64,000 bases of DNA from Siphonodentalium dalli (taxonomy: Eukaryota; Mollusca; Scaphopoda; Gadilida; Siphonodentaliidae). The notes beneath the pieces were generated by a model. That model did no database searches, was not told where the DNA came from, and was given only the letters and a program-made list of their open reading frames with translations. This document shows, one piece after another, positions 4,728 to 58,111 of this stretch; position 1 is the first letter of the stretch, and each line of letters starts with the position of its first letter. The translations under genes and the position numbers were made by a program. The stretch is from positions 54,663,899-54,727,898 of the forward strand of contig CP136067.1 in the NCBI GenBank assembly GCA_032622095.1, read 5' to 3'.

Positions 4728-6776
4728 TTATTGATCAATGTGTAAAGGCAAAAATTCTGTAAGAGTTGTACACAAGCTTGATATCTGACGTTTCATTTCT
4801 GTTAATTCTTTACGCATTTCTGGATGTTGAGTGTTAGACGATCTACCATTCCTTGCAAAGCTGGTATCGTTGGAACGAAACGTATTACTGGCGTATCGTC
4901 CTCCGTCAAATTTATTCTGTGACCCACGGTGAAGTGACGACCGCACACGATGCACATCAGACAACTCCTCAGCCGAACAACTACCACATTTCAATCCAGT
5001 CCCTAACCTCTCTAATCCAGCATCGTTAGGGTGCATGCCAATTATCGTGAAATGACGCCCGAGAAACATAACCGTTACGCTCAGCAAATTTTGGAGAATG
5101 GTCGATGAATTCACATCCAAAACTGGAACACACTTCCTTATAGCACTCATTTGTTTGGAAAATCAGTCGGTTTGCACCGGCTCTGCTCGGCGTCGGTAAA
5201 ACTGACGAAATGCGTACGGTGGCGGAAGGAAATTTGTCCCTTATTGCAGTGACCACCGACTTAACTTTGACTGACTCTGTTCTAATCCCATGTCGGCATG
5301 AATTTATCCCGACGTGAATCGTAACCTTATGTACATTTACATCGCTGTTCGATTTCATTATCCAATCCATAAGTCCATCTAGCCTGAGACCGCCTATCGA
5401 TACTATATTCACATACTCGTCTCGATTTGCTAATCGTCTCGCATTAAGATATACCGCAGAACCGAATCTCCAATTAGCAGATGAACTTTCTTTGGTTGTC
5501 GCGAGTATGAAGATTCCAAAATCGTAGTGTCGTTAATATACATAGGCCGTGTGTCTCGCTTCGCCAAGTTTAGATCACTAAACGTAGACTCCACTTCCTC
5601 GTGCTCATCTCCTGACACAGCAGTTTCCCGTTGAGTTCCATCGTTTTCAAATTGACCATCCAAAACATCAAATTTGTTTGAAATGTTAACATTTATGGTG
5701 ACTTCATCTTCCTGTCGATCAGAAGTGCCATTATTCTCGATTGAGTTGACAGTTTTAGAAACATTTCCAGTTTGGATTTTGGGAACTTCAGTTTGAATTT
5801 GAAGATTATTTTCCGTTTGTGTTGATTTACCTGCACACGTGTTCTTTTTTGACGATGTGAGTGATTTTCGTTTTGTACATTTTGGTGTATCGTTTGTTGC
5901 TCCTAATATATTTAATGTTTCTTCCGCTGCTTTAGCTGCCAACTTTGCATTTTTCCCACGTAAATTTTTAATTTCAGACTCCAGCTTATCTATTATCTCA
6001 CTGAGTCGCGATTCTACATTCAGTTGGTGAAATTTCATTTCCTCAATGAGAGTTTGGAGCTCGGAAATGGTCATCTTCATTCGAAATGATGCTGAAACGT
6101 CCGTATACGATTTTCGTTTTTGACTTATACGTCCTCTTTGAGTAATGAAACTGACACCTCCTCGCGATTTCTTTAACGAAAGTTGACATTTCTGAGATAC
6201 CGGAGTTTCCGTCAAGAGCGCAGATGTAGAGTGAGAATTCTGAGACTCCATAAGTTCATCCCAAGTATACATTCCGTGTTGGACGGACACGTCTAGTCCT
6301 TCTGTGTCCATGACAAATTCCTCAATGTTAGCACAATGATGAATCACGGGGAGTTCAGTATCTAGCCACCAATATACACTTAACTTCGATCCTTGTATCA
6401 TCACTCTGTTATTCGTTTTATATATGTGTACTGTTACTTTTCTTTTTGGCTTTTTCTTAATTATTGTTATCAAGTCTCCAACCGTTATACCATCCGTATC
6501 TGTCACAACCTTCCATAAAGCACCATTCTTTTCCGTTTTCTTCGAATTATTCCAGTATCTGTCCACAAAACCTTTTGTATATTTTGCAAATCTAACATTG
6601 TCCAATGCAATTGTCACACACTTTCCGCTATCTTTTTGTTCCGATTCTATTATATTGTCAGAAAAGTTAATTTTCTTTTTCATCAGTTTGTCCACATTAA
6701 GAGAGTATGTTTTGACATCTTTTAAAATAGATTCATTACAAAGTTCCTCGTTATTAACAGCTTCTGAGTCTTCCAT
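4728..6776 (-). pseudogene. LINE ORF1: coiled coil plus SGNH/GDSL esterase, broken by two frameshifts
   Basis: Three minus-strand frames join into one ORF1. The first (6776-5430, 448 codons from ATG) holds an unrecognised N-terminal domain rich in basic residues (VTVHIYKTNNRVMIQG at ~114-129), a predicted coiled coil at ~236-290, a low-complexity linker, and the esterase nucleophile block LLIGDSVLRY with the Ser at ~438. It then stops at 5430-5432. The second frame (to 5026) carries SIGG and the HVGINS block. The third (to 4728) carries HPNDAGLERL, the catalytic His block, and a polar tail. Esterase-bearing ORF1 proteins are known from CR1-like non-LTR elements. The frame changes are near 5435-5450 and 5035-5045; each looks like a small indel. 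ORF1 proteins of this type bind the element RNA; the role of the esterase is unknown. Confidence 0.85.
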
Positions 6777-11290: not shown

Positions 11291-12710
11291 TATGGGAGGC
11301 CCTTTTCGCATTTATTATTGGTTTGCGCTTAAGTTGGCTTGAGCGCAAATATTTGTGCTTAAGGCCAAAACAAAATGAATGCGTGTTTCCCGTAACCCGA
11401 CCGACCATCTTCAAAACCCCCGACCCAAGTTCATTTTATTGATCTTATATTTTAAAAAATCAATATTTAAACCGACCGACCGCACTGATAACCAAACTAT
11501 ACGTACGCGTGGTTCCATTTTATCTGATTCACCTCGCGAGAGATATCTTTGATATATTTATAAATTTTTCGCAAAGCCACGTCACTCTTAAAGGTGGATT
11601 ATCTCTTTGTAAACATGTATTATATAGTTACCGGGGTATAAAATATTAGATTTGAATCAAAGACTCCTGTCCGGAAATGCTTCTATCGATTAATATTAAT
11701 TTTATTTCGAATATTTTCTGGTCTAAAAAGGCCTGTTTGTTCAGCTAACGAACAATAGTGGTTATTGTTAACCAAGACCATAAATTTTATTGTACAATTT
11801 TGTCACAAATACACGTCAATTATCGCTTATATATGTGTAACAAAACAATACATACAATCAATCTGGGACATTTGACTTTCGGTGCGTAGCCAAAGGAACA
11901 GTCCAGTGCTCTAAATCGCAATATATGGTATCATCCGAATGGTCTGTTCTAAAAATAGTAACATGAACGGTCCCGATTTAATATTCGAAATAAAATCAAT
12001 ATTAGTTGATAGAAGCTTTTCCGGACAGGGATCTTCGGTTCATATCTGTTATTTTATACCCACGCAACTATTTAAAATTTGTTATATAAAGAGACAATCC
12101 ATCTTTAAAACAGACAGATAAATTACGACCGGACGCAATACCGGAAGATTACAGCTTATCGTTCCTCTTCGTTGACCGTATGCACGTATTGATATGGACT
12201 ATTGTTGAGTGTATTTGAGCAAAAAAGAAGTAGCCGTCTTTGAATTATAAGACATGCGCAGTAGGAAGCGACAGCGGCCAGGGAAATGAATGACTACTAT
12301 CACTAAAGTAAACATTGTACCCCGACTCTGATATGAGAATTTCTTATCGGGGAGATATTTTTTTAATACTAATCTCTGAACTAGATATTTTATATCTACA
12401 ATATATTTACTGTTTGGTGAATAATTAAACTTATTTCGTAAATATATAATTATGGCTTGTTTGCATATATCAGTTTTATCACCAATTTGTTGGTTGCTCG
12501 GGTCATTGTATTGTGTTTGATGGTGGTTAGGCATGGCCCACACGAGACTATACAAAAAATAAAATGAACAAATAAAATAAAATGAAAAGCCTATCGCCCG
12601 CCCCAATTTTTTTTGGGCTGGTTACGGGAAACATGCATTCATTTTCTTTTGGCCTAAGCGTAATTGATAAACATGTGTCTATCAATTTATTTGCGCTTAA
12701 GCGCAAATAC
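11291..12710 (+). mobile_element. 1.4-kb diverged foldback element, TATGGGAGGCC family
   Basis: The left end TATGGGAGGCC matches the terminus of the element at 54748-56888. Next come GCGCTTAAG/TTGAGCGCAA motifs and GGCCAAAACAAAATGAATG, which reappear inverted at 12620-12710 (GGCCAAAAGAAAATGAATG in reverse, then GCGCTTAAGCGCAAAT). Inner arms also pair: 11585-11735 (TCCGGAAATGCTTCTATC) with 11935-12125 (TCCGGAAAAGCTTCTATC in reverse). The loop is ~11750-11930. The right terminal CCTCCCATA is missing, so that end is truncated. The arms are clearly diverged, so this is an old copy. No transposase. Confidence 0.8.
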
Positions 12711-12981: not shown

Positions 12982-15900
12982 GACATGCCGTGGTCATTTG
13001 CCACATTTCCCCAAATTTTCCTGACCGAGCAGAGCGGGAATTTCTATTTGACCCACTTTTTGGGACTCGACCCAAACACTTTTGAGCCCAAAAAGTTCGG
13101 CCCAGGTGGCCATTTTTTAATATGTGACAGTTTGCCACATTTTCCGAAATTTTCCCGACCGAGCAGAGCGAAAACTGGGATTCGACCCACTTTTTCGGAC
13201 TCGACCCAATTTTTTTTCGGCCCAAATATTTTGGCCGAGGTGGCCATTTATGGCTCTGCACTTGTTTCGGCCAATTTCCGTTCATTTTCGGACTTTGCCT
13301 AATTTCGTGCATTTTGGAACTTTTTTTCGAAATTTTCTTTTCCCAGGAAGTTTTGTCTCGCCCTACTTAAGACGTTGCCATGGTCATTTGCCACATTTCC
13401 CCAAATTTTTCTGACCGAGCAGAGCGGGAATTTCTATTTGACCCACTTTTTGGGACTCGACCCAAAAACTTTTCAGCCCAAAAAGTTCGGCCCAGGTGGC
13501 CATTTTTTAATATGTGACAGTTTGCCACATTTTCCGAAATTTTCCCGACCGAGCAGAGCGAAAACTGGGATTCGACCCACTTTTTCGGACTCGACCCAAT
13601 TTTTTTTCGGCCCAAAATATTTGGCCGAGGTGGCCATTTATGGCACCGCACTTGTTTCGGCCAATTTCCGTTCATTTTCGGACTTTGCCTAATTTCGTGC
13701 ATTTTGGAACTTTTTTTCGAAATTTTCTTTTCCCAGGAAGTTTTGTCTCGCCCTACTTAAGACGTTGCCATGGTCATTTGCCACATTTCCCCAAATTTTT
13801 CTGACCGAGCAGAGCGGGAATTTCTATTTGACCCACTTTTTGGGACTCGACCCAAAAACTTTTCAGCCCAAAAAGTTCGGCCCAGGTGGCCATTTTTTAA
13901 TATGTGACAGTTTGCCACATTTTCCGAAATTTTCCCGACCGAGCAGAGCGAAAACTGGGATTCGACCCACTTTTTCGGACTCGACCCAATTTTTTTTCGG
14001 CCCAAAATATTTGGCCGAGGTGGCCATTTATGGCACCGCACTTGTTTCGGCCAATTTCCGTTCATTTTCGGACTTTGCCTAATTTCGTGCATTTTGGAAC
14101 TTTTTTTCGAAAAATAAATTTCACAGGAAGTTTTGTCTCGCCCTACTTAAGACGTTGCCATGGTCATTTGCCACATTTCCCCAAATTTTTCTGACCGAGC
14201 AGAGCGGGAATTTCTATTTGACCCACTTTTTGGGACTCGACCCAAAAACTTTTCAGCCCAAAAAGTTCGGCCCAGGTGGCCATTTTTTAATATGTGACAG
14301 TTTGCCACATTTTCCGAAATTTTCCCGACCGAGCAGAGCGAAAACTGGGATTCGACCCACTTTTTCGGACTCGACCCAATTTTTTTTCGGCCCAAATATT
14401 TTGGCCGAGGTGGCCATTTATGGCTCCGCACTTGTTTCGGCCAATTTCCGTTCATTTTCGGACTTTGCCTAATTTCGTGCATTTTGGAACTTTTTTTCGA
14501 AAAATAAATTTCACAGGAAGTTTTGTCTCGCCCTACTTAAGACGTTGCCATGGTCATTTGCCACATTTCCCCAAATTTTTCTGACCGAGCAGAGCGGGAA
14601 TTTCTATTTGACCCACTTTTTGGGACTCGACCCAAAAACTTTTCAGCCCAAAAAGTTCGGCCCAGGTGGCCATTTTTTAATATGTGACAGTTTGCCACAT
14701 TTTCCGAAATTTTCCCGACCGAGCAGAGCGAAAACTGGGATTCGACCCACTTTTTCGGACTCGACCCAATTTTTGTTTGGCCCAAAATATTTGGCCGAGG
14801 TGGCCATTTATGGCACCGCACTTGTTTCGGCCAATTTCCGTTCATTTTCGGACTTTGCCTAATTTCGTGCATTTTGGAACTTTTTTTCGAAAAATAAATT
14901 TCACAGGAAGTTTTGTCTCGCCCTACTTAAGACGTTGCCATGGTCATTTGCCACATTTCCCCAAATTTTTCTGACCGAGCAGAGCGGGAATTTCTATTTG
15001 ACCCACTTTTTGGGACTCGACCCAAAAACTTTTCAGCCCAAAAAGTTCGGCCCAGGTGGCCATTTTTTAATATGTGACAGTTTGCCACATTTTCCGAAAT
15101 TTTCCCGACCGAGCAGAGCGAAAACTGGGATTCGACCCACTTTTTCGGACTCGACCCAATTTTTTTTCGGCCCAAATATTTTGGCCGAGGTGGCCATTTA
15201 TGGCTCCGCACTTGTTTCGGCCAATTTCCGTTCATTTTCGGACTTTGCCTAATTTCGTGCATTTTGGAACTTTTTTTCGAAAAATAAATTTCACAGGAAG
15301 TTTTGTCTCGCCCTACTTAAGACGTTGCCATGGTCATTTGCCACATTTCCCCAAATTTTTCTGACCGAGCAGAGCGGGAATTTCTATTTGACCCACTTTT
15401 TGGGACTCGACCCAAAAACTTTTCAGCCCAAAAAGTTCGGCCCAGGTGGCCATTTTTTAATATGTGACAGTTTGCCACATTTTCCGAAATTTTCCCGACC
15501 GAGCAGAGCGAAAACTGGGATTCGACCCACTTTTTCGGACTCGACCCAATTTTTGTTTGGCCCAAAATATTTGGCCGAGGTGGCCATTTATGGCACCGCA
15601 CTTGTTTCGGCCAATTTCCGTTCATTTTCGGACTTTGCCTAATTTCGTGCATTTTGGAACTTTTTTTCGAAAAATAAATTTTACAGGAAGTTTTGTCTCG
15701 CCCTACTTAAGACGTTGCCATGGTCATTTGCCACATTTCCCCAAATTTTCCTGACCGAGCAGAGCGGGAATTTCTATTTGACCCACTTTTTGGGACTCGA
15801 CCCAAAAACTTTTCAGCCCAAAAAGTTCGGCCCAGGTGGCCATTTTTTAATATGTGACAGTTTGCCACATTTTCCGAAATTTTCCCGACCGAGCAGAGCG

Positions 15901-17308
15901 AAAACTGGGATTCGACCCACTTTTTCGGACTCGACCCAATTTTTGTTCGGCCCAAATATTTTGGCCGAGGTGGCCATTTATGGCACCGCACTTGTTTCGG
16001 CCAATTTCCGTTCATTTTCGGACTTTGCCTAATTTCGTGCATTTTGGAACTTTTTTTCGAAAAATAAATTTCACAGGAAGTTTTGTCTCGCCCTACTTAA
16101 GACGTTGCCATGGTCATTTGCCACATTTCCCCAAATTTTCCTGACCGAGCAGAGCGGGAATTTCTATTTGACCCACTTTTTGGGACTCGACCCAAAAACT
16201 TTTCAGCCCAAAAAGTTCGGCCCAGGTGGCCATTTTTTAATATGTGACAGTTTGCCACATTTTCCGAAATTTTCCCGACCGAGCAGAGCGAAAACTGGGA
16301 TTCGACCCACTTTTTCGGACTCGACCCAAATTTTGTTCGGCCCAAATATTTTGGCCGAGGTGGCCATTTATGGCTCCGCACTTGTTTCGGCCAATTTCCG
16401 TTCATTTTCGGACTTTGCCTAATTTCGTGCATTTTGGACCTTTTTTTCGAAAAATAAATTTCACAGGAAGTTTTGTCTCGCCCTACTTAAGACGTTGCCA
16501 TGGTCATTTGCCACATTTCCCCAAATTTTCCTGACCGAGCAGAGCGGGAATTTCTATTTGACCCACTTTTTGGGACTCGACCCAAAAACTTTTCAGCCCA
16601 AAAAGTTCGGCCCAGGTGGCCATTTTTTAATATGTGACAGTTTGCCACATTTTCCGAAATTTTCCCGACCGAGCAGAGCGAAAACTGGGATTCGACCCAC
16701 TTTTTCGGACTCGACCCAAATTTTGTTCGGCTCAAAATATTTGGCCGAGGTGGCCATTTATGGCACCGCACTTGTTTCGGCCAATTTCCGTTCATTTTCG
16801 GACTTTGCCTAATTTCGTGCATTTTGGAACTTTTTTTCGAAAAATAAATTTCACAGGAAGTTTTGTCTCGCCCTACTTAAGACGTTGCCATGGTCATTTG
16901 CCACATTTCCCCAAATTTTCCTGACCGAGCAGAGCGGGAATTTCTATTTGACCCACTTTTTGGGACTCGACCCAAAAACTTTTCAGCCCAAAAAGTTCGG
17001 CCCAGGTGGCCATTTTTTAATATGTGACAGTTTGCCACATTTTCCGAAATTTTCCCGACCGAGCAGAGCGAAAACTGGGATTCGACCCACTTTTTCGGAC
17101 TCGACCCAAATTTTTTTCGGCTCAAAATATTTGGCCGAGGTGGCCATTTGTGGCACCGCACTTGTTTCGGCCAATTTCCGTTCATTTTCGGACTTTGCCT
17201 AATTTCGTGCATTTTGGAACTTTTTTTCGAAAAAAATTTTCACAGGAAGTTTTGTCTCGCCCTACTTAAGACGTTGCCATGGTCATTTGCCACATTTCCC
17301 CAATTTTT
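12982..17308 (+). repeat. 390-bp satellite array, 11 units plus a partial
   Basis: Units start near 12982 and then every 390 bases (13372, 13762 ... 16882), with a partial unit ending at 17308. Each unit is an internal dimer: two halves share TTTGCCACATTT, CCGACCGAGCAGAGCG, GACCCACTTTTT, GACTCGACCCA and GGTGGCCATTT. Units are nearly identical except for a few positions (AAATATTTT or AAAATATTT, GGCTCCGCA or GGCACCGCA, the T-run before CGGCCC, TTTTCTTTTCCC or AAATAAATTTCAC). From 14155 the variants alternate, so 14155-14932 and 14935-15712 look like two copies of a 780-bp dimer. Both strands stay open for about 105-111 codons per unit, which is a side effect of composition and not evidence of a protein. 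Confidence 0.96.
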
Positions 17309-17340
17309 TTGAATAAGGAATAAGGAATAAGGAATAAGTA
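17309..17340 (+). repeat. (GGAATAA)n heptamer microsatellite
   Basis: Four tandem GAATAAG units directly abut the last, truncated satellite unit, marking the array edge. Confidence 0.85.
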
Positions 17341-19782: not shown

Positions 19783-21405
19783 GAGCCGTAATTTCGCTAA
19801 AATCCGGATTGAGAATCCAAAGCCGATTACGGGGGGCGGAGCTAATTTCGGATTCTAGGTCAGATTTTGAAATCCACGTGGTCTCCGAAACTCTCCCCCA
19901 GCGTCAAACATGGCTCATGTATTTGACACAAGTATCATTTGTATCTTATATTTATAAAGTGCATGTTTGTTGTGAAAGTCATGCTGTTCTTCTATGTGTG
20001 TATACATGCACGGCACATAATTTGCTGCCAATCCGACTTAATCGCATCTTTTTTTCAAGTTAAAGTGTGTTTATTGATGATGGCAAGCATATCTAAACAT
20101 GACAGCTCTAGGCCTCCTGAATCAAATTCCGAAGATGTTGTGAAGAACACACGGAACTTGTCAGTTGAACAGGGACGTGACGACAGGGGTTGATTGGGTG
20201 TCTCGACCCCCACCCCGAACTTTGGTACAATTTGCTAAGCTGTGCAGTCATTCATACGTGAGGAAAATCAGGATTATTTTGACTAACTGTTTCAAATAAT
20301 GATACGTACAAGCCAACAAACGCAACAAACAAACCCGATTTTAAATAAATACATATACAAACTTATGACTAACTCGGGAGAGGGGGTGTCCAGTGATCTG
20401 TATATATGTTCAACTTGTTTTGGTAGTCATGTTGCTTTGCCATTACTAATTATTTATTTTTTTCAGTGTAATAACATATGGGAGAGGGGGTACCCTTAAG
20501 TGAGTCAGTACTTGTCCCCCAATTCCTTTGTATGTATAGACAAATGTATGTGTTATATATCATGTGTTATCTAAATTTGACATATATTTGAAATAAATAT
20601 ATCTAAACTAAACTTTGGTACATTCCAGCAGTCGGAAATTTCATGCATGACACAACATTAGTTGGATGTTTGGTTCAATGGGGGGGGGGGGGGTTGCAGT
20701 TGGCCGGAAATTTGAGGAAACAAAACATGTTAAAATTGCTATAACTTTAAGACTAGATGATAGTACATACGTGTATCTGATAATCCATCGATACCATATA
20801 ATCCTACTATTTCTTGAATAAGAAGAAACATTATAATAACGAACACAGCAGAAGACATATCCATGCAGGTTCATATGAATTCGGTCAATGGTGACGTATC
20901 CGCCGAATTCGAAATTGACATGCGTTCGGGCGGTATTTTAAGGATGGAATTATGAAATGGACATATGAAAGTGACAATCAACAATGATTTGCCATCAACC
21001 GAAGTGCTCCCCCAGCGTTACTATCAATAGCGTTATTATTTGGCTAATTTCACTAATATTCTCCCAGTTTACATTCAATAAAACAAATTTGTCTCCGCAT
21101 TTAAAATTCTTTGATATAGATCGTTTATATTCTGCAATAATTTGTACACAAGAGACGGATTCTTATGTTTTATTGTGTTTTTAAACTCTGAGGTGGCGGA
21201 ATCTCGGTTTGTTTACATTACGAACATTTGAGTCCGTAATCGGAATCCGAATCCAAATCGGATTACCACGAAATTAGGATTACGGTCTGTTCGTTTACTG
21301 ATTCTGCAAATTTGTGGTCTGTTCTTTTGCCGAACCAAGTCGTACGGGGACCAATCTGTAATCTGGATCCAGAATCTGAAACGGATTTTAGCGAAATAAC
21401 GCCTC
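19783..21405 (+). mobile_element. R1 TIR element, copy 1
   Basis: Left end GAGCCGTAATTTCGCTAAAAT, right end the inverse, GGATTTTAGCGAAATAACG followed by CCTC. This family (called R1 here) occurs six times in the window. Hallmarks are a TTGTATCTTATATTTATAAAG segment, a CCTCCTGAATCAAATTCCG segment, a TGTATGTATAGACAAATG segment, a hypervariable G run (14 G at 20680-20693), and a subterminal tail rich in GGATTC/GAATCC palindromes. Short open frames recur between copies but none resembles a transposase, so the element is probably non-autonomous. Copy 1 is nearly identical to copy 4 (inverted). Confidence 0.88.
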
Positions 21406-21406
21406 A

Positions 21407-22514
21407 GAGCCGTAATTTCGCTAAAATCCGGATTGAGAATCCAAAGCCGATTACGGGGGGCGGAGCTAATTTCGGATTCTAGGTCAGATTTTGAAATCCA
21501 CGTGGTCTCCGAAAATCTCTCCCAGCGTCAAACATGGCTCATGTATTTGACAAAAGTATCATTTGTATCTTATATTTATAAAGTGCATGTTTGTTGTGAA
21601 ATCATGCTTTTCGTCTATGTGTATATACACGGCACATAATTTGCTGCCAATCCGACTTAATCGCATCTTTTTTTTTCAAGTTAAAGTGTGTTTATTAATG
21701 TTGGCAAGCATATCTAAACATGACAGCTCTAGGCCTCCTGAATCAAATTCCGAAGATGTTGTGAAGAACACACAAAACTTGTCAGTTGAACAGGGACGTG
21801 ACGACAGGTGTTGCTTGGGTGTCTCGACCCCCACCCCGATTTTTGGTACAATTTGCTAAGCTGTGCAGTCATTCATACGTGAGGAAAATCAGGATTATTT
21901 TGACTAACTGTTTCAAATAATGATACGTACAAGCCAACAAACGCAACAAACAAACAAACCCGATTTTAAATAAATACATATACAAACTTAATTATGACTA
22001 ACTCGGGAGATCGAGGGGGTGTCCAGTGATCTGTATATATGTTCAACTTGTTTTGGTAGTCATGTTGCTTTGCCATTACTAATTATTTATTTTTTCAGTG
22101 TAATAACATTTGGGAGAGGGGGTACCCTTAAGTGAGTCAGTACTTGTCCCCCAATTCCTTTGTATGTATAAACAAATGTATGTGTTATATATCATGTGTT
22201 ATCTAAATGTGACATATATTTGAAATAAATATATCTAAACTAAACTTTGGTACATTCCAGCAGTCGGAAATTTCATGCATGACACAACATTAGTTGGACA
22301 TTAATTTGACACCATATATAGGTTGGCATTGTTCTCATTGTTTGATTTTTTTCAACCAGTAAAAGTTGGTAATTTTCCAATCTTAGTGTTTGTCAGATTG
22401 GATATTTCCAAGGGGAGCAAATTGAATTCTGCGAACCTGTGAGATTGATGTTTGGTTCAAGGGGGGGGGGGTGCAGTTGGCCGTAAATTTGAGGAAACTT
22501 CTAGCCACGTCCCT
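21407..22514 (+). mobile_element. R1 TIR element, copy 2 (3' truncated)
   Basis: Begins one base after copy 1 ends, in the same orientation, with GAGCCGTAATTTCGC. It matches copy 3 almost base for base, including the unusual CTCTCCCAGCG and GATCGAGGGGGTG variants, until CTAGCCACGTCCCT at 22514, where homology stops. The G run is 11 long (22461-22471). Confidence 0.88.
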
Positions 22515-22610
22515 TGAACTTACTTCAGGGTTACAACTTGGAGTTAGATGAAGTGCTCGCTGCCCCCGTTGATCCAAGGCGACAAAGAGCTCTCCCATGT
22601 GCGTTGAGGT
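22515..22610. other. Short unique junction between R1 copy 2 and the 3.9-kb foldback element
   Basis: No structure seen. It ends with CGTAAT (22611-22616), the left copy of the foldback target duplication. Confidence 0.5.
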
Positions 22611-22619
22611 CGTAATTAT

Positions 22620-23215
22620 GGAAGGCCATTTGTGTCAAAAATCAAAGTGCCAGTTTTCAAATTCTAAACTTCAATTTATATTTTTTAAGTGTCCCAACGC
22701 TAATTTTATAGACCAATTGGGCTTATTCGTTATATACACGGGTGTTATTTACTGATTCTAGAAGGCGAAATCTTCATTTCAGGAAGGCCATTTGTGTCAA
22801 AAATCAAAGTGCCAATTTTCAAATCCTAAACTTGTTTTTTAAGTGTCACAACGCTCAATTTTATAAACCAATTTTATAAACCAATTGGACTTATTCTTAT
22901 ACACGGGTGCTATTTACTGATTCCAGAAGGCAAAATCTTCATTTCAGGAATGTCGTTTGTGCCAAAAATCAAAGTGCCAATTTTCAAATTCTAAACTTCA
23001 TTTTATTTTGTTTAAGTGTCCCAATGCTCATTTTATAAACCGATTGGGCTTATTCTTTAGACTATAATACACGGGTGGTATTCACTTATTCTAAACTTCG
23101 ATTTAGTTTTTTAAGTGTCCCAACGCTCATTTTTTAAACTAACTGGGCTTATTCTTTATATAATGGTGCTATGATTTACTGATTCTAGAAGGAAAAATCT
23201 TCATTTCAGGTTCCA
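22620..23215 (+). repeat. ~165-bp tandem repeat, left arm of the foldback element
   Basis: Units begin near 22621, 22786, 22947 and ~23090, each with CAAAGTGCCA, TCTAAACTT, AAGTGTCCCAACGCT, a GGGCTTATTC block and a TGATTCTAGAAGG block. The right arm carries about two inverted units at 26275-26561. Confidence 0.85.
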
Positions 23216-23625
23216 ATTAGCTCACACAAATGTAAGCTGATTTAAAATTAAAATGGTTATATCCATAACGCAAACGGGCTATTTTCCTAATTCTAGAATA
23301 TATATTATATGTGTCTTGCATTATAGGCGAGTTAAAATTAGAATGATGAAATAAGCGTAGTAGAAGTCATAACGCGAAAGGAGGTTACGTCAATCCATGT
23401 TCGTACCCAAACTTAAACTTTTTCAGAATGAAGATTATAAAATCTACTTTTCAGAATGAAGATTATAAAATGTACAATATAAAATGAACATTTTAGCGAA
23501 GCACGGCCTTGACCCTTAAATGTCAAGGTTGTTGTTTAATGAATGATCCCCAGCTTGGCGTGGGTTGAAAGGAAGGAAGCGGGGTAACGTCGCAAGAGCT
23601 ACACTCTGACCTTAACCTCAGTTAA

Positions 23626-25680
23626 GGGTATACTTGGGTGTGACTAATTACCGCCTGGGACCGCCCGGGTGGCCCCACGTGCCTGTGGACACAATATCTC
23701 GATGTTATAACGTAGCCACATGCCACCTGAGGGCAACATAGAACAATTTACTCGCTCGCTCGTCTCTGGCCGGTCATATTAACCCCACAAATGCCTATGT
23801 TGGCTAAAGAGCCTGGGTGATTACTGGTGTCTTCGTGTGTTTTCAGACAGATTATTTTGGTGATTCTCAGTAGTGCAATACACCTGAGTGTTAATTCCAT
23901 ATATTGACTCGTTGACGCGTCCACGGCCGATGGTATTAACTCCTCAAATTCCGGTAAAATAGTGCATAAACAAAAAGAACCGGGCGGCCCCATGGGCCCG
24001 TGGACACTATATCTCGACGTTATAACATAGCAACATACCCCACGAGGTCAACCTAGAAAATGTTACTCGCTCGCTCGACTCCGGCCGATGTTATTAACCC
24101 CTCAAAATCCGATAAAATGGTATATAAACAAAAATAACATTGGGACCGCCCGGGAGGCCGCATGGGCCCATGGACACTATATCTCGACATTGTAACGTAG
24201 CGACATACACCACGGGGTCAACATAGAAAAGGTTACTCGCTCGCTCGACTCCGGCCGGTGTTATTAACACCTCAAAATCCGATAGAATGGTATATAAACA
24301 AAAAGAACACTGGGACCGCCCGGGACCGCCCCGGGGGCCCCGGGCCCATGGGCCCGTGAACACCATATCTCGACGTTATAACGTAGCGACATACCCCACG
24401 AGGTCAACCTAGAAAATGTTACTCGCTCGTTCGACTCCGGCCGGTGTTATTAACCTCTCAAAATCCGATAAAATAGTATATAAACAAAAAGCAAACTGGA
24501 AGCAAACGTTCGCTGAGAACCTCCATGCTTTGCATATCAGGTGATAATAGGAGGTGGGTGGAAGAGTGTGGCGAATACGAATAACACTTTTCTTAGAACT
24601 AGAATTTCAGAAGTTACTTTTTAGTGCATTAGATTAGATTAGGCGATCCTTAAATTGTGATTTTTTTTATTTCTAGAGAATATGCACTTGCGATGGCGCC
24701 TAATATAATACAAAAAATGAAATCAACTCAATTACACCTGCTCGTGTCAAAATATAAAAATTATAGGTGTAAAGTTATTAATTTTTATTGAAAACATTCA
24801 AGAAATTTGCGATATTTACGATCATGTAAAGCCGAATATTTATGGTGATACGTTATTTTGCGGGATTTTGTGTTGACGCGTCAGCGAGTCAATATCTGGA
24901 AGTCACTATCAGGTGGTATTACACCTGCTCGTGTCAAAATATAAAAATTATAGGTGTAAAGTTATTAATTTTTATTGAAAACATTCAAGAAATTTGCGAT
25001 ATTTACGATCATGTAAAGCCGAATATTTATGGTGATACGTTATTTTGCGGGATTTTGTGTTGACGCGTCAGCGAGTCAATATCTGGAAGTCACTATCAGG
25101 TGGTATTGCACTACCATGCATCATCAAAATATGCTGTCCGAAATCAAAGAAGACACCGAGCTGTCCGTGCCCTCTTAGCCAATATCGGATTTTTATGGGG
25201 TTAATAATACCGGCCGGAGTCGAGTGAGCGAGTAAGATTTTCTAGGTTGACCTCGTGTGGTATGTCGCTACGTTATACCGTCGAAATATAGTGTCCACGG
25301 GTCCATTGGGCCTCCCGGGCGGTCCCCAGGTTTTTTTTGTTTATACACTATTTTACCGGAATTTGAGGGGTTAATAACATCGGCCGTGGACGCGTCAACG
25401 AGTCAATATATGGAATTAACACTCAGGTGTATTGCACTACCGAGAATCACCAAAATAATCTGTCTGAAAACACACGAAGACACCGGTAATCACATAGGCT
25501 CTTTTAGACAATATCGGCATTTGTGGTGTTAATATGACCGGCCGGGGACGAGCGAGCGAGTAAATTTTTCTATGTTGCCCTCAGGTGGCATGTCGCTACG
25601 TTATAACGTCGATATATTGGGTCCACGGGCACTTGGGGCCACCGGGTGGTCCCCGGGTGGTAATTAGTCACACCGAAGTA
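23626..25680 (+). repeat. Inner inverted array of ~170-186-bp GC-rich units
   Basis: GTGTGACTAATTACCGCC near 23640 pairs with GGTAATTAGTCACACCG near 25660. Direct units in the left half are spaced 170 and 186 bases apart (CTCGCTCGCTCGACTCC near 24064, 24234, 24420). Units carry self-complementary GGCCCATGGGCCC and CCGCCCGGG blocks, strikingly GC-rich against the AT-rich surroundings. Confidence 0.85.
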
Positions 25681-26600
25681 GAGCATGCGTAAAGCGGATC
25701 TTCCTATCCCGATTCCTTCCAGTCTCTACCGTAAAGGTCAAACACAGGGAGCGCTCATTATTTCTGTATCCAAGAATGTGGGTGACCTTCACCTTCAGAA
25801 ATGTAATAAAATTGTACTGTATTTCACTGCTTTCCTTTTAGAATGCAGTTTCTTTATTTTAAAATCTTTTTTTCTCACTTCAGTTCTCATGAATCCGGAT
25901 TCTTAATTTTGAAATATTGTTTTCTTTTTGCAATTCCCACCTGATATCTTCTAGACTGTTGTCTTTCCTAGACTCATACCTGACTCAATCGTACCGATTT
26001 GCTGGCCTGGGTACTAGGCTAGTCTTTCCGACCTGCTTCGGACAACCCCGAATATTTAGTCGATTTTCGAAATTCGCCATAGAATTAACAATCCACAAGT
26101 TAATTATTAGAACAGAACGTCTTAAATTCCAACTCTCGCAAACTTTCGTTATAAAAACTGGAAAATGAAGGCTGTGACACAAATATATAAACTTTTGCGT
26201 TTAAGAACTGAAAACGGAATTTGTATATTCTAGATTATAGCCCTTTGGCCCTGATACCATTTGAACGTTATATTTGATTGTGTGTGCTGGAACGTGAAAC
26301 GAAGATTTTGATTTCTAGAATCAGCAAACAACACCCGTGTATATACATAATACGCCCAATTGGTTTATAAAATGAGCGTTGGGATACAAATGGCTTTCCT
26401 GAAATGAATATTTTGCCTTTTAGAATCAGTAAATAGCACCCATGTATAAGAATACGTCCAATTCGTTTATAAAATGAGCATTGGGACACTTAAAACAAAT
26501 AAATTGAAGTTTAGAATTTGAAAACTGGCACTTTGATTTTTGACACAAATGGCCTTCCATACGTAATACCATTTGTTGAGGCTAGTGCATGGATTTGCCT

Positions 26601-28463
26601 GAGCCGTAATTTCGCTAAAATCCGGATTGAGAATCCAAAGCCGATTACGGGGGGCGGAGCTAATTTCGGATTCTAGGTCAGATTTTGAAATCCACGTGGT
26701 CTCCGAAAATCTCTCCCAGCGTCAAACATGGCTCATGTATTTGACAAAAGTATCATTTGTATCTTATATTTATAAAGTGCATGTTTGTTGTGAAATCATG
26801 CTTTTCGTCTATGTGTATATACACGGCACATAATTTGCTGCCAATCCGACTTAATCGCATCTTTTTTTTTCAAGTTAAAGTGTGTTTATTAATGTTGGCA
26901 AGCATATCTAAACATGACAGCTCTAGGCCTCCTGAATCAAATTCCGAAGATGTTGTGAAGAACACACAAAACTTGTCAGTTGAACAGGGACGTGACGACA
27001 GGTGTTGCTTGGGTGTCTCGACCCCCACCCCGATTTTTGGTACAATTTGCTAAGCTGTGCAGTCATTCATACGTGAGGAAAATCAGGATTATTTTGACTA
27101 ACTGTTTCAAATAATGATACGTACAAGCCAACAAACGCAACAAACAAACAAACCCGATTTTAAATAAATACATATACAAACTTAATTATGACTAACTCGG
27201 GAGATCGAGGGGGTGTCCAGTGATCTGTATATATGTTCAACTTGTTTTGGTAGTCATGTTGCTTTGCCATTACTAATTATTTATTTTTTCAGTGTAATAA
27301 CATTTGGGAGAGGGGGTACCCTTAAGTGAGTCAGTACTTGTCCCCCAATTCCTTTGTATGTATAAACAAATGTATGTGTTATATATCATGTGTTATCTAA
27401 ATTTGACATATATTTGAAATAAATATATCTAAACTAAACTTTGGTACATTCCAGCAGTCGGAAATTTCATGCATGACACAACATTAGTTGGACATTAATT
27501 TGACACCATATATAGGTTGGCATTGTTCTCATTGTTTGATTTTTTTCAACCAGTAAAAGTTGGTAATTTTCCAATCTTAGTGTTTGTCAGATTGGATATT
27601 TCCAAGGGGAGCAAATTGAATTCTGCGAACCTGTGAGATTGATGTTTGGTTCAAGGGGGGGGGGGGGGGGGTGCAGTTGGCCGTAAATTTGAGGAAACTT
27701 CTAGCCACGTCCCTAGAACATGTGTCTGTTGTCTATACAGAGACTATTGTGCAAAACGACTGCATTTAACGAAACAAAACATGTTAAACATGAAATTGCT
27801 ATAACATTAAGACTAGATGATAGTACATACGTGTATCTGATAATCCATCGATACCATATAATCCTACTATTTCTTGAATAAGAAGAAACATTATAATAAC
27901 GAACACAGCAGAAGACATATCCATGCAGGTGCATATGAACTCGGTCAATGGTGACGTATCCGCCGAATTCGAAATCGACATGCGTTCGGGCGGTATTTTA
28001 AGGATGGAATTATGAAATGGACAATCAACAATGAATTGAAATTTCTTCGCCATCAACCGAAGTGCTCCCCCAGCGTTACTATCAATAGCGTTATTATTTG
28101 GCTAATTTCAGTAATATTCTCCCAGTTTACATTCAATAAAACAAATTTGTCTCCGCATTTAAAATTCTTTGATATAGATCGTTTATATTCTGCAATAATT
28201 TGTACACAAGAGACGGATTCTTATGTTTTATTGTGTTTTTAAACTCTGAGGTGGCGAAATCTCGGTTTGTTTACATTACGAACATTTGAGTCCGTAATCG
28301 GAATCCGAATCCCTATCGGATTCCCACGAAATTAGGATTACGGTCTGTTCGTTTACTGATTCTGGAAATTTGTGGTCTGTTCTTTTGCCGAACCAAGTCG
28401 TACGGGGACAAATCTGTAATCTGAATCCAGAATCCAAATCGGATTTTAGCGAAATAACGCCTC
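26601..28463 (+). mobile_element. R1 TIR element, copy 3 (most complete plus-strand copy)
   Basis: GAGCCGTAATTTCGCTAAAAT at the left and GCGAAATAACGCCTC at the right, 1863 bases, with a 17-G run (27655-27671). It serves as the reference for the others. The segment near 27811-27830, read in reverse, gives the uninterrupted ACTATCATCTAGTCT site that shows copy 6 to be interrupted. It is almost identical to copy 2 over their shared length. Confidence 0.9.
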
Positions 28464-50826: not shown

Positions 50827-51451
50827 CTACCGTAGACACCGAGACGGATCAGATAGTTATTTTAAACTCATTGAAGTTAAATGTATCCCCATTTGTAAAT
50901 ATGTACATATCATTGTTACTTATAAATGTATTTATGTGAAATGTTTGTGAGTTTGGAGAATAAACTTGATTGAGACTTAACACAGTATATGATATCACGA
51001 ATGAAGCTTGCCAAGAATAAGGATAAGACTTCCCAGCTTACGAGGCAAAATCGAGAGCTGGACGACTGAGGGTGACTAGAAAGCCATCCATAAACGACGA
51101 CAATCGTAACAGAGGGAGAAATGAACGAAATTAGTATTTCGAATATGTTTTTTCTTTCTTCACAATTTAGGTAAATGGAAGAATGCATTCCTTACATGGT
51201 TATCTCCCAAATGTCCTAAACGCATCTGGTAGGAAAGATAATAAGTTTTATTTGTTAATACTCACCGACTTTATGAGGTCACAAAACAATCGGAACATTG
51301 TCCCGTTGTGTGAGTCTTCACGTATGACCAGCGTGTAAATCGGGTCTCAGCTCTCGGTATATAACATGTTCAACAAACGGACATGTGCCGTTTCTTAGTA
51401 AAGAAAGGTTTACGTAATCAAAGGCTTATTTACAGGATAAAAGCGCACGCA
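50827..51451. other. No gene seen
   Basis: AT-rich DNA, short frames only, no repeat structure noticed. Confidence 0.5.
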
Positions 51452-51453
51452 TA

Positions 51454-51706
51454 CATGTAATGCCCTAAGTAATCGACTCCTTAAACACAGCAGAATTATG
51501 GGTAACTTTTCAGGATTTAGTCGGAAATATGGCTTGTTGCCATTCATCGGAAAGCTCTCCTCTATGGCTTGTTGCAATTCATCGGAAAGCTCTCCTCGAG
51601 AGCTTTCCGATGAATGGCATGCAACAAGCCATATTTCCGACTAAATCCTGAAAAGTTACCCATAATTCTGCTGTGTTTAAGGAGTAGATTACTTAGGGCA
51701 TTACTG
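51454..51706 (+). mobile_element. Palindromic MITE, CAGTAATG family, 253 bp
   Basis: TA then CATGTAATGCCC at the left, GGGCATTACTG then TA at the right. Arms (GTAATCGACTCCTTAAACAC, TTCAGGATTTAGTCGG, TGCCATTCATCGGAAAGC) meet at CTCCTCGAGAG. TA target plus CA(G)TAATG ends recall Tc1/mariner-derived MITEs. It shares an extra internal duplication (TATGGCTTGTTGCAATTC) with the 17.4-kb copy that the 55.3-kb copy lacks. Confidence 0.88.
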
Positions 51707-52025
51707 TATATATGTATATTCCACCCCCTTTCCATTGACTGAAACCTGCTCGAATTTACAATATCAGTTATGAAAAGTATAATTATGGGGGTTGTGCTCT
51801 CTCGCCCCTCCGTGCTTCCACCGCCCCGAAACGTAGTTAACTGATGTTGGAAACCCTTTCTTTTCTGAATAGAATTATAAAAGTATAAATACACAGTATT
51901 CTTCATCTGGAGAGATATTTAGAATTAATGTATAAGCGGACGACAGGCAGACATATTTAAAGCGCTACAATGAGAATTTGTTCGAGTTATCTCCCTGCAT
52001 AGCTTTTTTTTTTATTATAATAGGT
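51707..52025. other. No gene seen
   Basis: Non-coding sequence between the MITE and R1 copy 5; a T run at ~52005-52013. Confidence 0.5.
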
Positions 52026-54077
52026 TGAGTCGTTATCTCGTGAGAATCCGGATTCAGAATATGGATTCAGATTACAGATTAGACCCCGTACGACTTGGTT
52101 CGGTAAACGAACAGACCAGAAATTGGCAGAATCAGTAAACGAACAGACCGTAATCTCAATCTCGTGGTAATCCAGATTCGGATTCAGATTCCGATTACGG
52201 ACTCAAATGTTCGTAATGTAAACAAACCGAGATTTCGCCACCTCGGAGTTTAAAAACACAATAAAACATAAGAATCCGTCTCTTGTGTACAAATTATTGC
52301 AGAATATAAACGATCTATATCAAACTATTTTAAATGCGGAGACAAATTTGTGTTAGCGAATGTAAACTGGGAGAATATTACTGAAATTAGCCAAATAATA
52401 ACGCTATTGATAGTACTTCGGTTGATGGCAAAGCAAATCATTGTCGAGTTCATTGTCACTTTCATATGTCCATTTCATAATTCCATCCATAAAATACCGC
52501 CCGAACGCATGTCGATTTCGAATTCGGCGGATACGTCACCATTGACAGAATTCATGTGAACCTGCATGGATATGTCTTCTGCTGTGTTCATTATTATAAT
52601 GTTTCTTCTTATTCAAGAAATAGTAGGATTATATGATATCGATGGATTATCATATACACGTATGTACTATCTAGTCTTATAGCAATTTAATGTTTAAAAT
52701 GTTTTGTTTCGTTAAATGCAGTCGTTTTGCACATAAGTCTCTGTATAGACAACAAACATAGGCATTTTTTGGCCAACGTGCTGTACATTAGTTGGAAAAT
52801 AAAGCTTTGCTCATGAAGCTAATGTTGTGGTCTTGTGATCGCAGGTGAACTGCATCTCCCAATCGCACAAACAAAAATGTAAAGCTTATTCTAGGATTTC
52901 AGGACTATATAGTGGAAATGTTAGTCAATTTATTGATTAAGTACCCACACATACAAGTTCTAGGGACGCGTGGCTAGAGGTTTCCTCAAATTTCCGGCCA
53001 ACTGCACCCCCCCCCCCATTGAACCAAACATCAATCTCACAGGTTCGCAGAATTCCATTTGCACCCCTTGGAAATAGCCAACCTGACACACACTAAGATT
53101 GGAAAATTACCAACTTTTAATGTTTGAAAAAATCAAACAATGAAAACAATTCCAACCTATATATGGTGTCAAATTAATGTCCAACTAATGTTGTGTCATG
53201 CATGAAATTTCCAACTGCTGGAAATGTACCAAAGTTTAGTTTAAACATATTTATTTCAAATATTTGTCAAATTTAGATAACACATGATATATAACACATA
53301 CATTTGTGTATACATACAATGGGATTGGAGGACAAGTGCTGACTCACTGAAGGGTACCCCCTCTCCCATATGTATTAACTGAAAAAATAAATAATTAGTA
53401 ATGGCAAAGCAACATGACTACCAAAAACAAGTTGAACATATATACAGATCACCGGTCACCCCCTTTCCCGATTTAGTCATAAGTTTGTATATGTATTTAT
53501 TTAAAATCGGGTTTGTTTGTTGCGTTTGCTGGCTTGTACGTATCATTATTTGGAACAATTAGCCAAAAGAATCCTGATTTTTCCTCACGTATGAATGACT
53601 GCACAGCTAAGCAAATTGTACCAAAGTTCGGGGGGGGGGGGGTCGAGACACCCAACCAACCCCTGTCGTCACACGTCACTGTGCAACTGACAAGTTTCGT
53701 GTGTTCTTCACAACATCTTCGGAATTTGAATCAGGAGGCCTAGAGCTGTTATAATTAAATGCTTGCCCTCATCAATAAACACACTTTAACTTGAAAAAAA
53801 AGAAGATGCGATTAAGACGGATTGGCAGCAAATTATGTGCCGTATATATACGCATAGAAGAAAAGCATGACTTTCACAACAAACGTGAACTTTATAAATA
53901 TAAGATACAAAATTGATACTTGTGTCAAATACATGAGCCATGTTTGACGCTGGGAGAACATTAAACATAGTTTCGGAGACCACGTGGATTTCAAAATCTG
54001 ACCTAGAATCGGGAATTAGCCCCGCCCCCGTAATCGGCTTTAGATTCTGAATCCGGATTCCCACCAAATAACGACTC
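52026..54077 (-). mobile_element. R1 TIR element, copy 5
   Basis: GAGTCGTTATCTCGTGAGAATCC at the left (parts only quoted) and CCAAATAACGACTC at the right. The R1 body is complete on the minus strand with an 11-C run (53007-53017). It includes a ~150-base CGTGCTGTACATTAG...CATACAAG segment (52760-52960) not seen in the other copies. Both ends are more diverged than in copies 1-4. Confidence 0.85.
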
Positions 54078-54777
54078 TCAGAGGCGTTATTTCGCTAAAA
54101 TCCCGATTCAGAATCTGGATTCAGATTACAGATTGGTCCCCGTACGACTTGGTTCGGCAAAAGAACAGACCAGAAATTGGCAGAATCAGTAAACGAACAG
54201 ACCGTAATCTCAATCTCGTGGTAATCCGAATCTGGATTCGGATTCCGATTACGGACTAAAATGTTCGTAATGTAAACAAACCGAGATTTCGCTACCTCGG
54301 AGTTTAAAAACACAATAAAACATAAGAATCCGTCTCTTGTGTACAAATTATTGCAGAATATAAACGATCTATATCAAACTATTTTAAATGCGGAGACAAA
54401 TTTGTTTTATTGAATGTAAACTGGGAGAATATTACTGAAATTAGCCAAATAATAACGCTATTGATAGTAACGCTGGGGGAGCACTTCGGTTGATGGCGAA
54501 GCAAATCATTGTTGATTGTCCCTTTCATATGTCCATTTCATAATTCCATCCATAAAATACCGCCCGAACGCATGTCGATTTCGAATTCGGCGGATACGTC
54601 ACCATTGACCGAAATTCACCGAATTCATATGAACCTGCATGGATATGTCTTCTGCTGTGTTCGTTATTATTATGTTTCTTCTTATTCAAGAAATAGTAGG
54701 ATTATATGATATCGATGGATTATCAGATACACGTATGTACTATCATCTATGGGAGGCCAAATTCACATTTAATAATG

Positions 54778-54998
54778 AATTGCACTTAAGCGCAATTGAT
54801 TGCACTTAAGCTAAGCGCAATCAATTGCGCTTAAGCTAAGCGCAATCAATTGCGCTTAAGCACAAATACCACATATTGTGCTTAAGCGCAAATAGGGGAT
54901 TTACGCTTAAGCGTAATTAATTACGCTTAAGCGCAATTAATTGCGCTTAAGCGCAATCAATTGCACTTAAGCGCGATCAATTGTGCTTAAGCGTAATT
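54778..54998 (+). repeat. Subterminal GCGCTTAAGCGCAA palindrome array
   Basis: About a dozen copies of (G/A)CTTAAGCGCAAT(T/C) in alternating phase, each itself a palindrome centred on TTAA. The mirror array is at 56700-56865, and single copies occur at both arms of 11291-12710. Repeated subterminal motifs of this kind are often transposase binding sites (inference). Confidence 0.88.
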
Positions 54999-55321
54999 GT
55001 GACTACTATCTAACCTACCCATAAACTATTAGCATGACCTGGTGTATCACCTAGCAACACAAGATGAGCATTGGGCTAATTTTTAACCTGCATGTACTCA
55101 ACAGTCATCTGTGAGTTATAATAATGTGTTCAACAATGAGAATCCCTAATTACATATTATCAGTATCCCTCTATCCAAAGAATTGATGTCTCCTTCCCGG
55201 AACTCTAGTAATTTTTGGTATGATGTTTTTTAATGTATTTTTGCACAGATTTTAGCCTTTACTATGGTAATATCCTATACATGCATGCGGTGTCACTGCA
55301 TGAGGGCTTTCTGACCTCATA

Positions 55322-55531
55322 CAGTAATGCACTAATTAATCGACTTCTTAACCACAGCAGAATTATGGGTAACTTTTCAGGATTTAGTCGGAAATATGGC
55401 TTGTTGCCATTCATCGAAAAGCTCTCGAGAGCTTTCCGATGAATAGCAACAAGCCATATTTCCGACTAAATCCTGAAAAGTTATCCATAATTCTGCTGTG
55501 GTTAAGGAGTCGATTAATTAGAGCATTACTG
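55322..55531 (+). mobile_element. Palindromic MITE, CAGTAATG family, 210 bp, intact
   Basis: TA (55320-55321), CAGTAATGC at the left, GCATTACTG at the right, TA (55532-55533). Arms of ~105 bases meet directly at the symmetric CTCTCGAGAG with no loop. Nested inside the foldback element. Confidence 0.92.
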
Positions 55532-55553
55532 TATGGTTTACTTATTGACTTAA

Positions 55554-56196
55554 AGGGGTACTGTACACAAAAATAGGCGATTTTTTAATTTACTCCCATT
55601 GAAATAACTTTCAAGTTAGATTGTGTTCGTGTTATATGAGTTTCGTACAAACCTAATTTAGCGAAGAAAATATTGATCTTGGAAACAAAAATATTACGAT
55701 TTCAAACTACGCGCCATGTTTTTGACCTTCACCGGAGAAGACGCGGTCGCAGGAACAACCGGAAGTTCATTGCTCACAGCTTCGATAGATGCATTCAATC
55801 TCTTCCATCGAACAATCTCACTCCCTATAAAATACTTGACGCTTTATGACTCTTTGTTTCTTTCTCCTTTTTTCCGAATCGGTTATAACGGGCCTTCTTT
55901 TGCAGGTAACATGTTTTGTTTGCAACTCAATAATGTTCGCGAACGGCCGTCGATAAAAGACACGCAACATATGCGATTTCAAGAACGGTAACTCGTAATG
56001 GCATAATTCTCCATTTTATGACTCCAGCCATAAATGAATTTATATTAAATAATTCAATTTAACTTTTACGATAGCCTGTTAACCGGAACGTTTTCAGTAG
56101 ACATCGTCGACTCAAATTAGTTATTTTATAATATAATATTCATATTAGATCGCTATTGTCACCGGGAATTTATTGAAATTGGGGTACAGTACCCCT
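55554..56196 (+). mobile_element. TTAA element family 1, 643 bp
   Basis: TTAA (55550-55553), AGGGGTACTGTAC; at the right GTACAGTACCCCT, TTAA (56197-56200). A plus-strand frame at 55716-55991 has no recognisable domain. Right third shared with 38434-39168. Likely non-autonomous relative of a TTAA-targeting superfamily. Confidence 0.88.
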
Positions 56197-58111
56197 TTAA
56201 ATCAGGGGAAAAAACCCTATTTTCATATTATCAGCATCCCTGTCCAAAAAATGGTGTGTAATTACTGGAGCTTTGGTGTCTCAGTCCTGGAGCTCTAGTT
56301 TTTCTTATTAAATCAGCATCTCTTGCACAAATCAATAGTATTTCCATGATCATATAGTATGAATGTGGTGTCATCGAGGGCTTTCTTCCCTCATATGGTG
56401 TGCCTGTATACTCGAAAATTGAAGAAAATCAATGTCGCCCCCGACTAATACAGAAAGTAATGCTAATGCAAGTAGCCCCAACTAATATATACCACAGATA
56501 ATATAATGCTATCACGAGTCGCTCCAGCTAAAACAGAAGGTGATACTATTGCAAGTCAGCCATTTTGATAAAGAAGTTGGGCTAGCTCCCTACCCATCCA
56601 AACCAATGAAACCAAGAGGTGATATGTCAATATGAGTTAATGCTAAGTTATGGAGAAACCTATTTATTCACCAGGGGTGTTTTGTTACATATAACCATGA
56701 ATTGCGCTTAAGCGCAATTGATTGCGCTTAAGCGCAAATAATTACACTTAAGCGCAATTAATTGCGCTTAAGCGCAATGGTTGCGCTTAAGTGCAATTGA
56801 TTGCACTTAAGCGTAATTATTTGCGCTTAAGTGCAATTGATTTCGCTTAAGCACAATTAATTATTAAATGTGAATTTGGCCTCCCATAATCATCTAGTCT
56901 TATAGCAATTTCATGTTTAAAATGTTTTGTTTCGTTAAATGCAGTCGTTTTGCACAATAGTCTCTGTATAGACAACAGACACATGTTCTAGGGACGTGGC
57001 TAGAAGTTTCCTCAAATTTCCGGCCAACTGCACCCCCCCCCCCCCCCCCCCCCCCCCCCATTGAACCAAACATCAATCTCACAGGTTCGCAGAATTCCAT
57101 TTGCTCCCCTTGGAAATATTCAACCTGACAAACACTAAGATTGGAAAATTACCAACTTTTACTGGTTGAAAAAAAAATCAAACAATGAGAACAATGCCAA
57201 CCAATATATGGTGTCAAATTAATGTCCAACTAATGTTGTGTCATGCATGAAATTTCCGACTGCTGGAATGTACCAAAGTTTAGTTTATATATATTTATTT
57301 CAAATATATGTCAAATTTAGATAACACATGATATATAACACATACATTTGTTTATACATACAAAGGAATTGGGGGACAAGTGCTGACACTTAAGGGTACC
57401 CCCTCTCCCATATGTTATTACACTGAAAAAATAAATAATTAGTAATGGCAAAGCAACATGACTACCAAAACAAGTTGAACATATATACAGATCACTGGAT
57501 ACAACCTCTCCCGAGTTAGTCATAAGTTTGTATATGTATTTATTTAAAATCGGGTTTGTTTGTTGCGTTTGCTGGCTTGTACGTATCATTATTTGGAACA
57601 GTTAGTCAAAATAATCCTGATTTTCCTCACGTATGAATGACTGCACAGCTAAGCAAATTGTACCAAAGTTCGGGGTGGGGGTCGAGACACCCAACCAACC
57701 CCTGTCGTCACGTCCCTGTTCAACTGACAAGTTTCGTGTGTTCTTCACAACATCTTCGGAATTTGATTCAGGAGGCCTAGAGCTGTCACGTTTAGATATG
57801 CTTGCCCTCATCAATAAACACACTTTAACTTGAAAAAAAGATGCGATTAAGTCGGATTGGCAGCAAATTATGTGCCGTGTATATACACATAGAAGAAAAG
57901 CATGACTTTCACAACAAACATGAACTTTATAAATATAAGATACAAATGATACTTGTGTCAAATACATGAGCCATGTTTGACGCTGGGAGAACATTAAACA
58001 TAGTTTCGGAGACCACGTGGATTTCAAAATCTGACCTAGAATCGGGAATTAGCCCCGCCCCCGTAATCGGCTTCGGATTCTGAATCCGGATTTTTAGCGA
58101 AATAACGACTC

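Follow-up and report, generated by a model that had tools for sequence, protein, structure and literature searches.

IS3EU is a known, catalogued and little-studied superfamily of DNA transposons. The accessible text of two papers describes TA..TA termini (PMC10045372) and 6-bp target-site duplications (PMC10045372, PMC12730594) and, for the fungal TET+ (Pucciniales) members, TAYGG..CCRTA ends, inverted repeats longer than 30 bp and duplications of 6 bp (PMC12730594). Duplications of 6-7 bp are also described for Dada, which inserts in small RNA genes and whose Dada-U6 and Dada-U1 families have no terminal inverted repeats in the available portion of the account (PMC3706591). Foldback-type elements such as Galileo and Tetris appear in the excerpts available as having long, internally repeated inverted repeats, and there the transposase of Galileo assigns it to the P superfamily. 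Here, we describe an element at 54748-56888 of the 64-kb window (the whole stretch of DNA analysed, from the scaphopod Siphonodentalium dalli), which we read, at a probability of roughly 0.85, as a non-autonomous, foldback-like IS3EU DNA transposon mobilised in trans by a DDE transposase of the IS3/IS481-like kind.

Anatomy of the element and its uninterrupted target sites

The element, its target sites and the related ends in the window are arranged as follows.

54748-56888: whole element, 2141 bp, without visible transposase
54742-54747: left target-site duplication, ATCATC, present as a single copy at two uninterrupted sites
56889-56894: right target-site duplication, ATCATC
54748-54776 (+): left terminal inverted repeat of 29 bp, matching the right repeat at every base
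56860-56888 (-): right terminal inverted repeat
54774-54998: left subterminal array, units of about 20-25 bp around the palindrome TTGCGCTTAAGCGCAA
56700-56862: right subterminal array with the unit AATTGCGCTTAAGCGCAATT, perfectly palindromic over its 20 bp
55318-55535: inner palindrome, 218 bp, 95% self-complementary, retained in relatives
55554-56196: nested element, 643 bp, inverted ends AGGGGTACTGTAC, TTAA at 55550-55553 and 56197-56200
27808-27830 (-): uninterrupted site with one ATCATC
20748-20770 (-): second uninterrupted site with one ATCATC
22617-26561: sister element with TATGGAAGGCC ends, duplication CGTAAT
11291-11330 (+): left end of a related subfamily, beginning TATGGGAGGCCCTTTT, with GCGCTT just inside

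As the initial annotation had recognised, the element is bounded by inverted TATGGGAGGCC ends, at 54748-54758 (+) and 56878-56888 (-), and by a duplicated ATCATC. Its termini are TA..TA, its ends read TATGG..CCATA and thus conform to TAYGG..CCRTA, and its inverted repeats, identical at 29 of 29 bases and about 80% alike across the next 210 bp, extend beyond 30 bp; the duplication is of 6 bp both here (ATCATC) and in the sister element (CGTAAT). In termini, ends and duplications the element therefore resembles the published accounts, as far as accessible, of IS3EU (with GingerRoot), from which it differs in lacking a transposase: it is absent among the listed genome matches to the integrase core model PF24764 and to the helix-turn-helix region considered below, the best candidates of which were scored. 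The available portions of the IS3EU literature searched make no mention of arrays of 20-bp palindromes like those found here, in which a palindrome as long as that of the unit AATTGCGCTTAAGCGCAATT was reached in 0 of 2000 shuffles. With Galileo and Tetris the element shares long, internally repeated inverted repeats, and it differs from them in its 6-bp duplication and TA..TA ends; it is foldback in build, and membership in that group is not claimed.

The empty site with a single ATCATC that had been proposed for this insertion is present at 27808-27830 (-), and a second one, beyond that proposal, lies at 20748-20770 (-). When the flanks of the element are joined through one ATCATC, they align over the junction with 28023-27571 at 92% and with 20992-20710 at 91%. 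A third copy of the target repeat, near 52640 (+), carries a deletion at the insertion point. An Rfam scan of 20500-28200, which includes both empty sites, returned no family at gathering score.

The interval of the nested element is missing in the relatives L014 and L039-L042. Its flanking TTAA is of the kind made by TTAA-targeting superfamilies, and at another locus (L053, near 1237) an end similar to AGGGGTACTGTAC stands immediately after TTAA. The inner palindrome has a 79% copy at 51450-51709, so it is present beyond these elements too, and inverted repeats resembling it by eye flank the transposase-bearing IS3EU element L008 described below.

Relatives in the window and across the genome

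The initial annotation had united this element with a sister at 22617-26562 and with a left end at 11291 in a TATGGRAGGCC family with 6-bp duplications and unrelated interiors. The sister stands as an element, with its CGTAAT duplication, but its right end falls one base earlier, at 26561. The end at 11291 is real, and the ends of relatives L038 and L044-L046 begin alike; no right end for it was found in the window at up to one mismatch, apart from TTTGGGAGGCC at 61381-61371 (-), which we left unassigned. Downstream of this end lies a tandem array with a period of 390 bp (12986-17309). Among the longest 40 of 65 self-matches of the window none joins 54748-56888 to 22617-26561, and to that extent the interiors of the two window elements are unrelated, but across the family the statement does not hold, as genomic relatives share interior: L039-L042 and L014 have two long interior blocks in common with 54748-56888, at 87-96%. 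These relatives measure 1185-1325 bp, the window element being longer mainly by the nested 643 bp and by longer arrays; near-matches to the unit core number 17 in the window element and 3-11 in eight other copies.

Across the 2.2 Gb of the genome, in nine contigs, TATGGRAGGCC occurs at 6759+6715 places and the reversed pattern at 447+376. The 24-base end of 54748-56888 is found at 1802+1735 places (control 0+0) and the 20-base end of the sister at 28+33 (none in the control), and the family of 54748-56888 has more than 1000 copies in the genome. Among the first 100 listed places of the 24-base end, neighbouring pairs within 20 kb comprise 20 that face inward and 2 that face outward; the inward pairs span 80 to 7658 bp, 17 of the 20 falling between 300 and 4500 bp. 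The shortest of them, of 90 and 80 bp (G000:C1:31119699-31119788 and 47371943-47372022), consist almost solely of two terminal repeats.

The 6-bp duplication proposed for the family recurs in its genomic members. Twelve two-ended relatives on contig C1 (L013, L014 and L038-L047, a count that leaves out three alternative pairings without duplication, one in L014 and two in L047) include eight with an exact 6-bp duplication, two that agree at five of six bases (L038, L043) and two that are unmatched (L044, L046), and for the eight exact copies no length other than 6 bp fits. Two additional copies have exact duplications, ATGACT in L054 and GATATG in L036; the latter, a complete relative of 1316 bp (L036 4379-5694), lies about 5 kb from the transposase of L010.

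Matches to these end sequences also occur in other repeats. Eight sister-family ends are spread on one strand over 0.63 Mb (G000:C3:18016130-18643455), as if amplified within a segmental repeat, and TATGGGAGGCC repeats on a single strand at steps of about 14.5 kb and 11.2 kb in G000:C1:739188-923842. In two copies from the latter region (L015, L016) the sequence past TATGGGAGGCC is unlike that of these transposon ends.

Transposases, TAYGG ends and subterminal arrays

The same genome holds IS3/IS481-like transposases that are preceded by TAYGG ends and by mostly palindromic arrays. PF24764 has 126 matches in it, and four translated frames that match this model (L007, L008, L010, L011) also match, below curated cut-offs, IS481 models (four of four) and IS3 models (two of four, L008 and L011). 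Catalytic spacing of D58D(33-43)E is found in five frames of the clade (L007-L011), and a comparison of L007 with solved structures by sequence gave no match at E 0.01. L008 is a complete 3069-bp element with TACGGAAGCC ends and rva_4 inside; its inverted repeats, about 390 bp long and 86% alike, are built of tandem units, and its flanks, AGAACA and ATAACA, agree at five of six duplicated bases. While L008 has a right end, none was found for L010, L011, L021, L023, L025 and L033 in the stretches examined. At L052 (4860-4900), one TACGGAAGCC element has its right end directly next to the left end of another copy, which lacks the first bases, and after this junction, on C7, five transposase exon matches follow at steps of about 3 kb, for which nested insertion and head-to-tail joining are both possible. 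In L021 (915-2586), a 21-bp palindromic unit is repeated 79 times in a subterminal array upstream of the transposase frame.

How general is this plan? We compared 43 loci picked from the matches to PF24764 (126) and to the helix-turn-helix region of L033 (88). The helix-turn-helix clade contributes 30 loci, in which some families are represented more than once. Read in gene orientation, 27 of the 30 carry upstream tandem repeats of units 18-24 bp long, or of doubled units, and 19 combine this array with a TAYGG-type end at most 170 bp before it. In the 13 other rva_4 loci, for which the same array rule was anchored on the rva_4 match with slightly greater upstream reach, the corresponding numbers are 2 for the array and 1 for the end, and the background of the end word is 37 in 890 stretches of 175 bases in rva_4 loci. 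The element at 54748-56888 has the array plan of the genome's TAYGG rva_4 elements.

The array units vary by family. Their cores, chosen by eye, are CCTGATATATCAGG in L010, TCGTGGCCACGA in L011, TCCTAATTAGGA in L021, CTCGTTATAACGAG in L035, CTTGCTGCAGCAAG in L062 and TTGCGTTTAAACGCAA in L033. When units were chosen by machine in 14 transposase-bearing loci, 10 held a palindrome reached by fewer than 1% of shuffles, and those of L007, L008, L022 and L023 held none at this level. The unit AATTGCGCTTAAGCGCAATT agrees with that of transposase family L033, represented by one broken copy, at 16 of 20 bases, a likeness attained by shuffled palindromes in 0 of 500 and 3 of 2000 cases. Among the rest of the 12 units tested in that comparison none exceeds chance (at least 184 of 500 as good), and L009 (core GGCGTTTAAACGCC), compared in addition to these 12, agrees at 12 of 20 (83 of 2000 as good).

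The end sequences beyond the first bases behave differently. Nine transposase-bearing ends are mutually alike, each against the other eight being equalled in 0-11 of 300 cases, whereas bases 6-26 of 54748-56888 show no significant likeness to these nine, being equalled by 186 of 1000 shuffles and by 404 of 2000 21-mers from the window. The corresponding bases of the sister (73 of 1000), of the end at 11291 (361) and of L045 (199) likewise lack a significant likeness. It is therefore TATGG that ties the termini to the transposase-bearing elements, and the array unit that makes the link to L033.

The initial annotation had suggested a genome-wide search for an autonomous copy with the same terminal inverted repeats, and among the matches listed, the best candidates of which were scored, this found no transposase between TATGGRAGGCC ends in the loci examined. 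The search covered the PF24764 places with loci around some of them, the matches to the L033 helix-turn-helix region, ten stretches upstream of exon matches, and a 100-base query from the end of 54748-56888. No transposase was seen in the two longest inward end pairs, L013 (7658 bp) and L054 (4424 bp). Comparing listed end places with transposase matches by eye over part of the genome, we found a single end closer than 20 kb, and none closer than 10 kb; this end, at C1:6217304, lies 18 kb from C1:6235518 and faces away. Exact ends inside transposase loci occur in L004 (one, directed away from the gene) and in L036 (the 1316-bp copy, which does not enclose the gene).

Several candidate partners were set aside. 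L003 and L004, with highly alike 294-aa rva_4 frames, show no TAYGG end at the single boundary compared, and L005 and L006 have no array of 18-24 bp with at least 2.5 copies. In L012, oriented from 3774 onward, there is a TATGGGGCGCC end, and a 233-aa frame limited to the C-terminal portion of the rva_4 domain stands between palindromic arrays of about 22 bp (TTGTGATATCACAA); neither a right end nor a duplication was found for this locus.

Superfamily assignment and a model of transposition

IS3EU, which the initial annotation had offered as a guess, gives the best fit in termini, 6-bp duplications and the presence of TAYGG transposases with the same plan; the guess falls short in that no autonomous copy with TATGGRAGGCC ends was found in the loci examined. 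Termini, duplication and anatomy speak for membership, and IS3/IS481-like transposases are encoded by elements of this genome that share the plan; the acting partner is one that we infer. Because the likely autonomous kind belongs to a catalogued superfamily, the initial annotation's own refuting condition, that the partner might prove to come from a well-catalogued superfamily of the same structure, largely applies. The family-specific arrays are the part worth following.

Could the TATGGRAGGCC families instead belong to another, perhaps undescribed, DDE superfamily with 6-bp duplications, their TATGG being convergent with IS3EU? Bases 6-26 without significant likeness to transposase-bearing ends would suit such an origin, as would the lack of an IS3EU transposase between TATGGRAGGCC ends among the matches listed. 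We nonetheless consider it unlikely, as three IS3EU hallmarks co-occur in 54748-56888, and both its array plan, that of the genome's TAYGG rva_4 elements, and its unit, close to that of L033, point the other way. Very improbable is an origin from Dada, Polinton or another 6-bp-duplicating element, even though duplications of about 6 bp are described there too in the accessible text (PMC10045372, PMC3706591). Dada, named as a candidate earlier, did not hold up: its U6 and U1 families have no terminal inverted repeats and its targets are small RNA genes, in the portion of the source available (PMC3706591), whereas 54748-56888 has a perfect 29-bp inverted repeat and 20500-28200, with the empty sites, is without an Rfam match at gathering score. 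The TA..TA ends of 54748-56888 also set it apart from Polintons. Ends of Polinton/Maverick elements are AG..CT. That the copies are a segmental or satellite repeat with chance inverted-repeat-like ends, not moved by cut-and-paste, has next to no probability. Some TATGGRAGGCC matches do lie in other repeats and continue unlike these ends (L015, L016), but the empty sites, the eight relatives out of 12 with an exact 6-bp duplication and the ratio of 20 inward to 2 outward pairs speak against it.

On the preferred IS3EU reading, an IS3/IS481-like transposase supplied in trans would cut at the TA of the TATGG..CCATA ends, the cut ends would be joined to the target strands with a 6-bp stagger, and gap repair would produce the 6-bp duplication. 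Just inside both ends, the arrayed palindromes of about 20 bp would most likely be the sites bound by the N-terminal helix-turn-helix region of the enzyme, spaced about two helical turns apart. The sequence itself shows the ends, duplications, empty sites, copy number and arrays, and the presence of such transposases, whereas the acting enzyme, the cutting chemistry and the role of the arrays are inferred.

In a wider and tentative view, possible although on balance doubtful, the IS3EU elements of this genome diversify in a lock-and-key manner, with family-private satellites of 20-23-bp units, mostly palindromic, each read by its own transposase, and 54748-56888 would be a parasite that has retained and amplified one lock to more than 1000 copies. 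With these copies, a minor superfamily gains non-autonomous members in very large numbers and with clean empty sites, and the palindromic arrays next to the ends become a concrete, testable candidate for end recognition by an IS3-like transposase in a eukaryote. Were the helix-turn-helix region to vary together with the units, the families would form a natural series of matched protein-site pairs.
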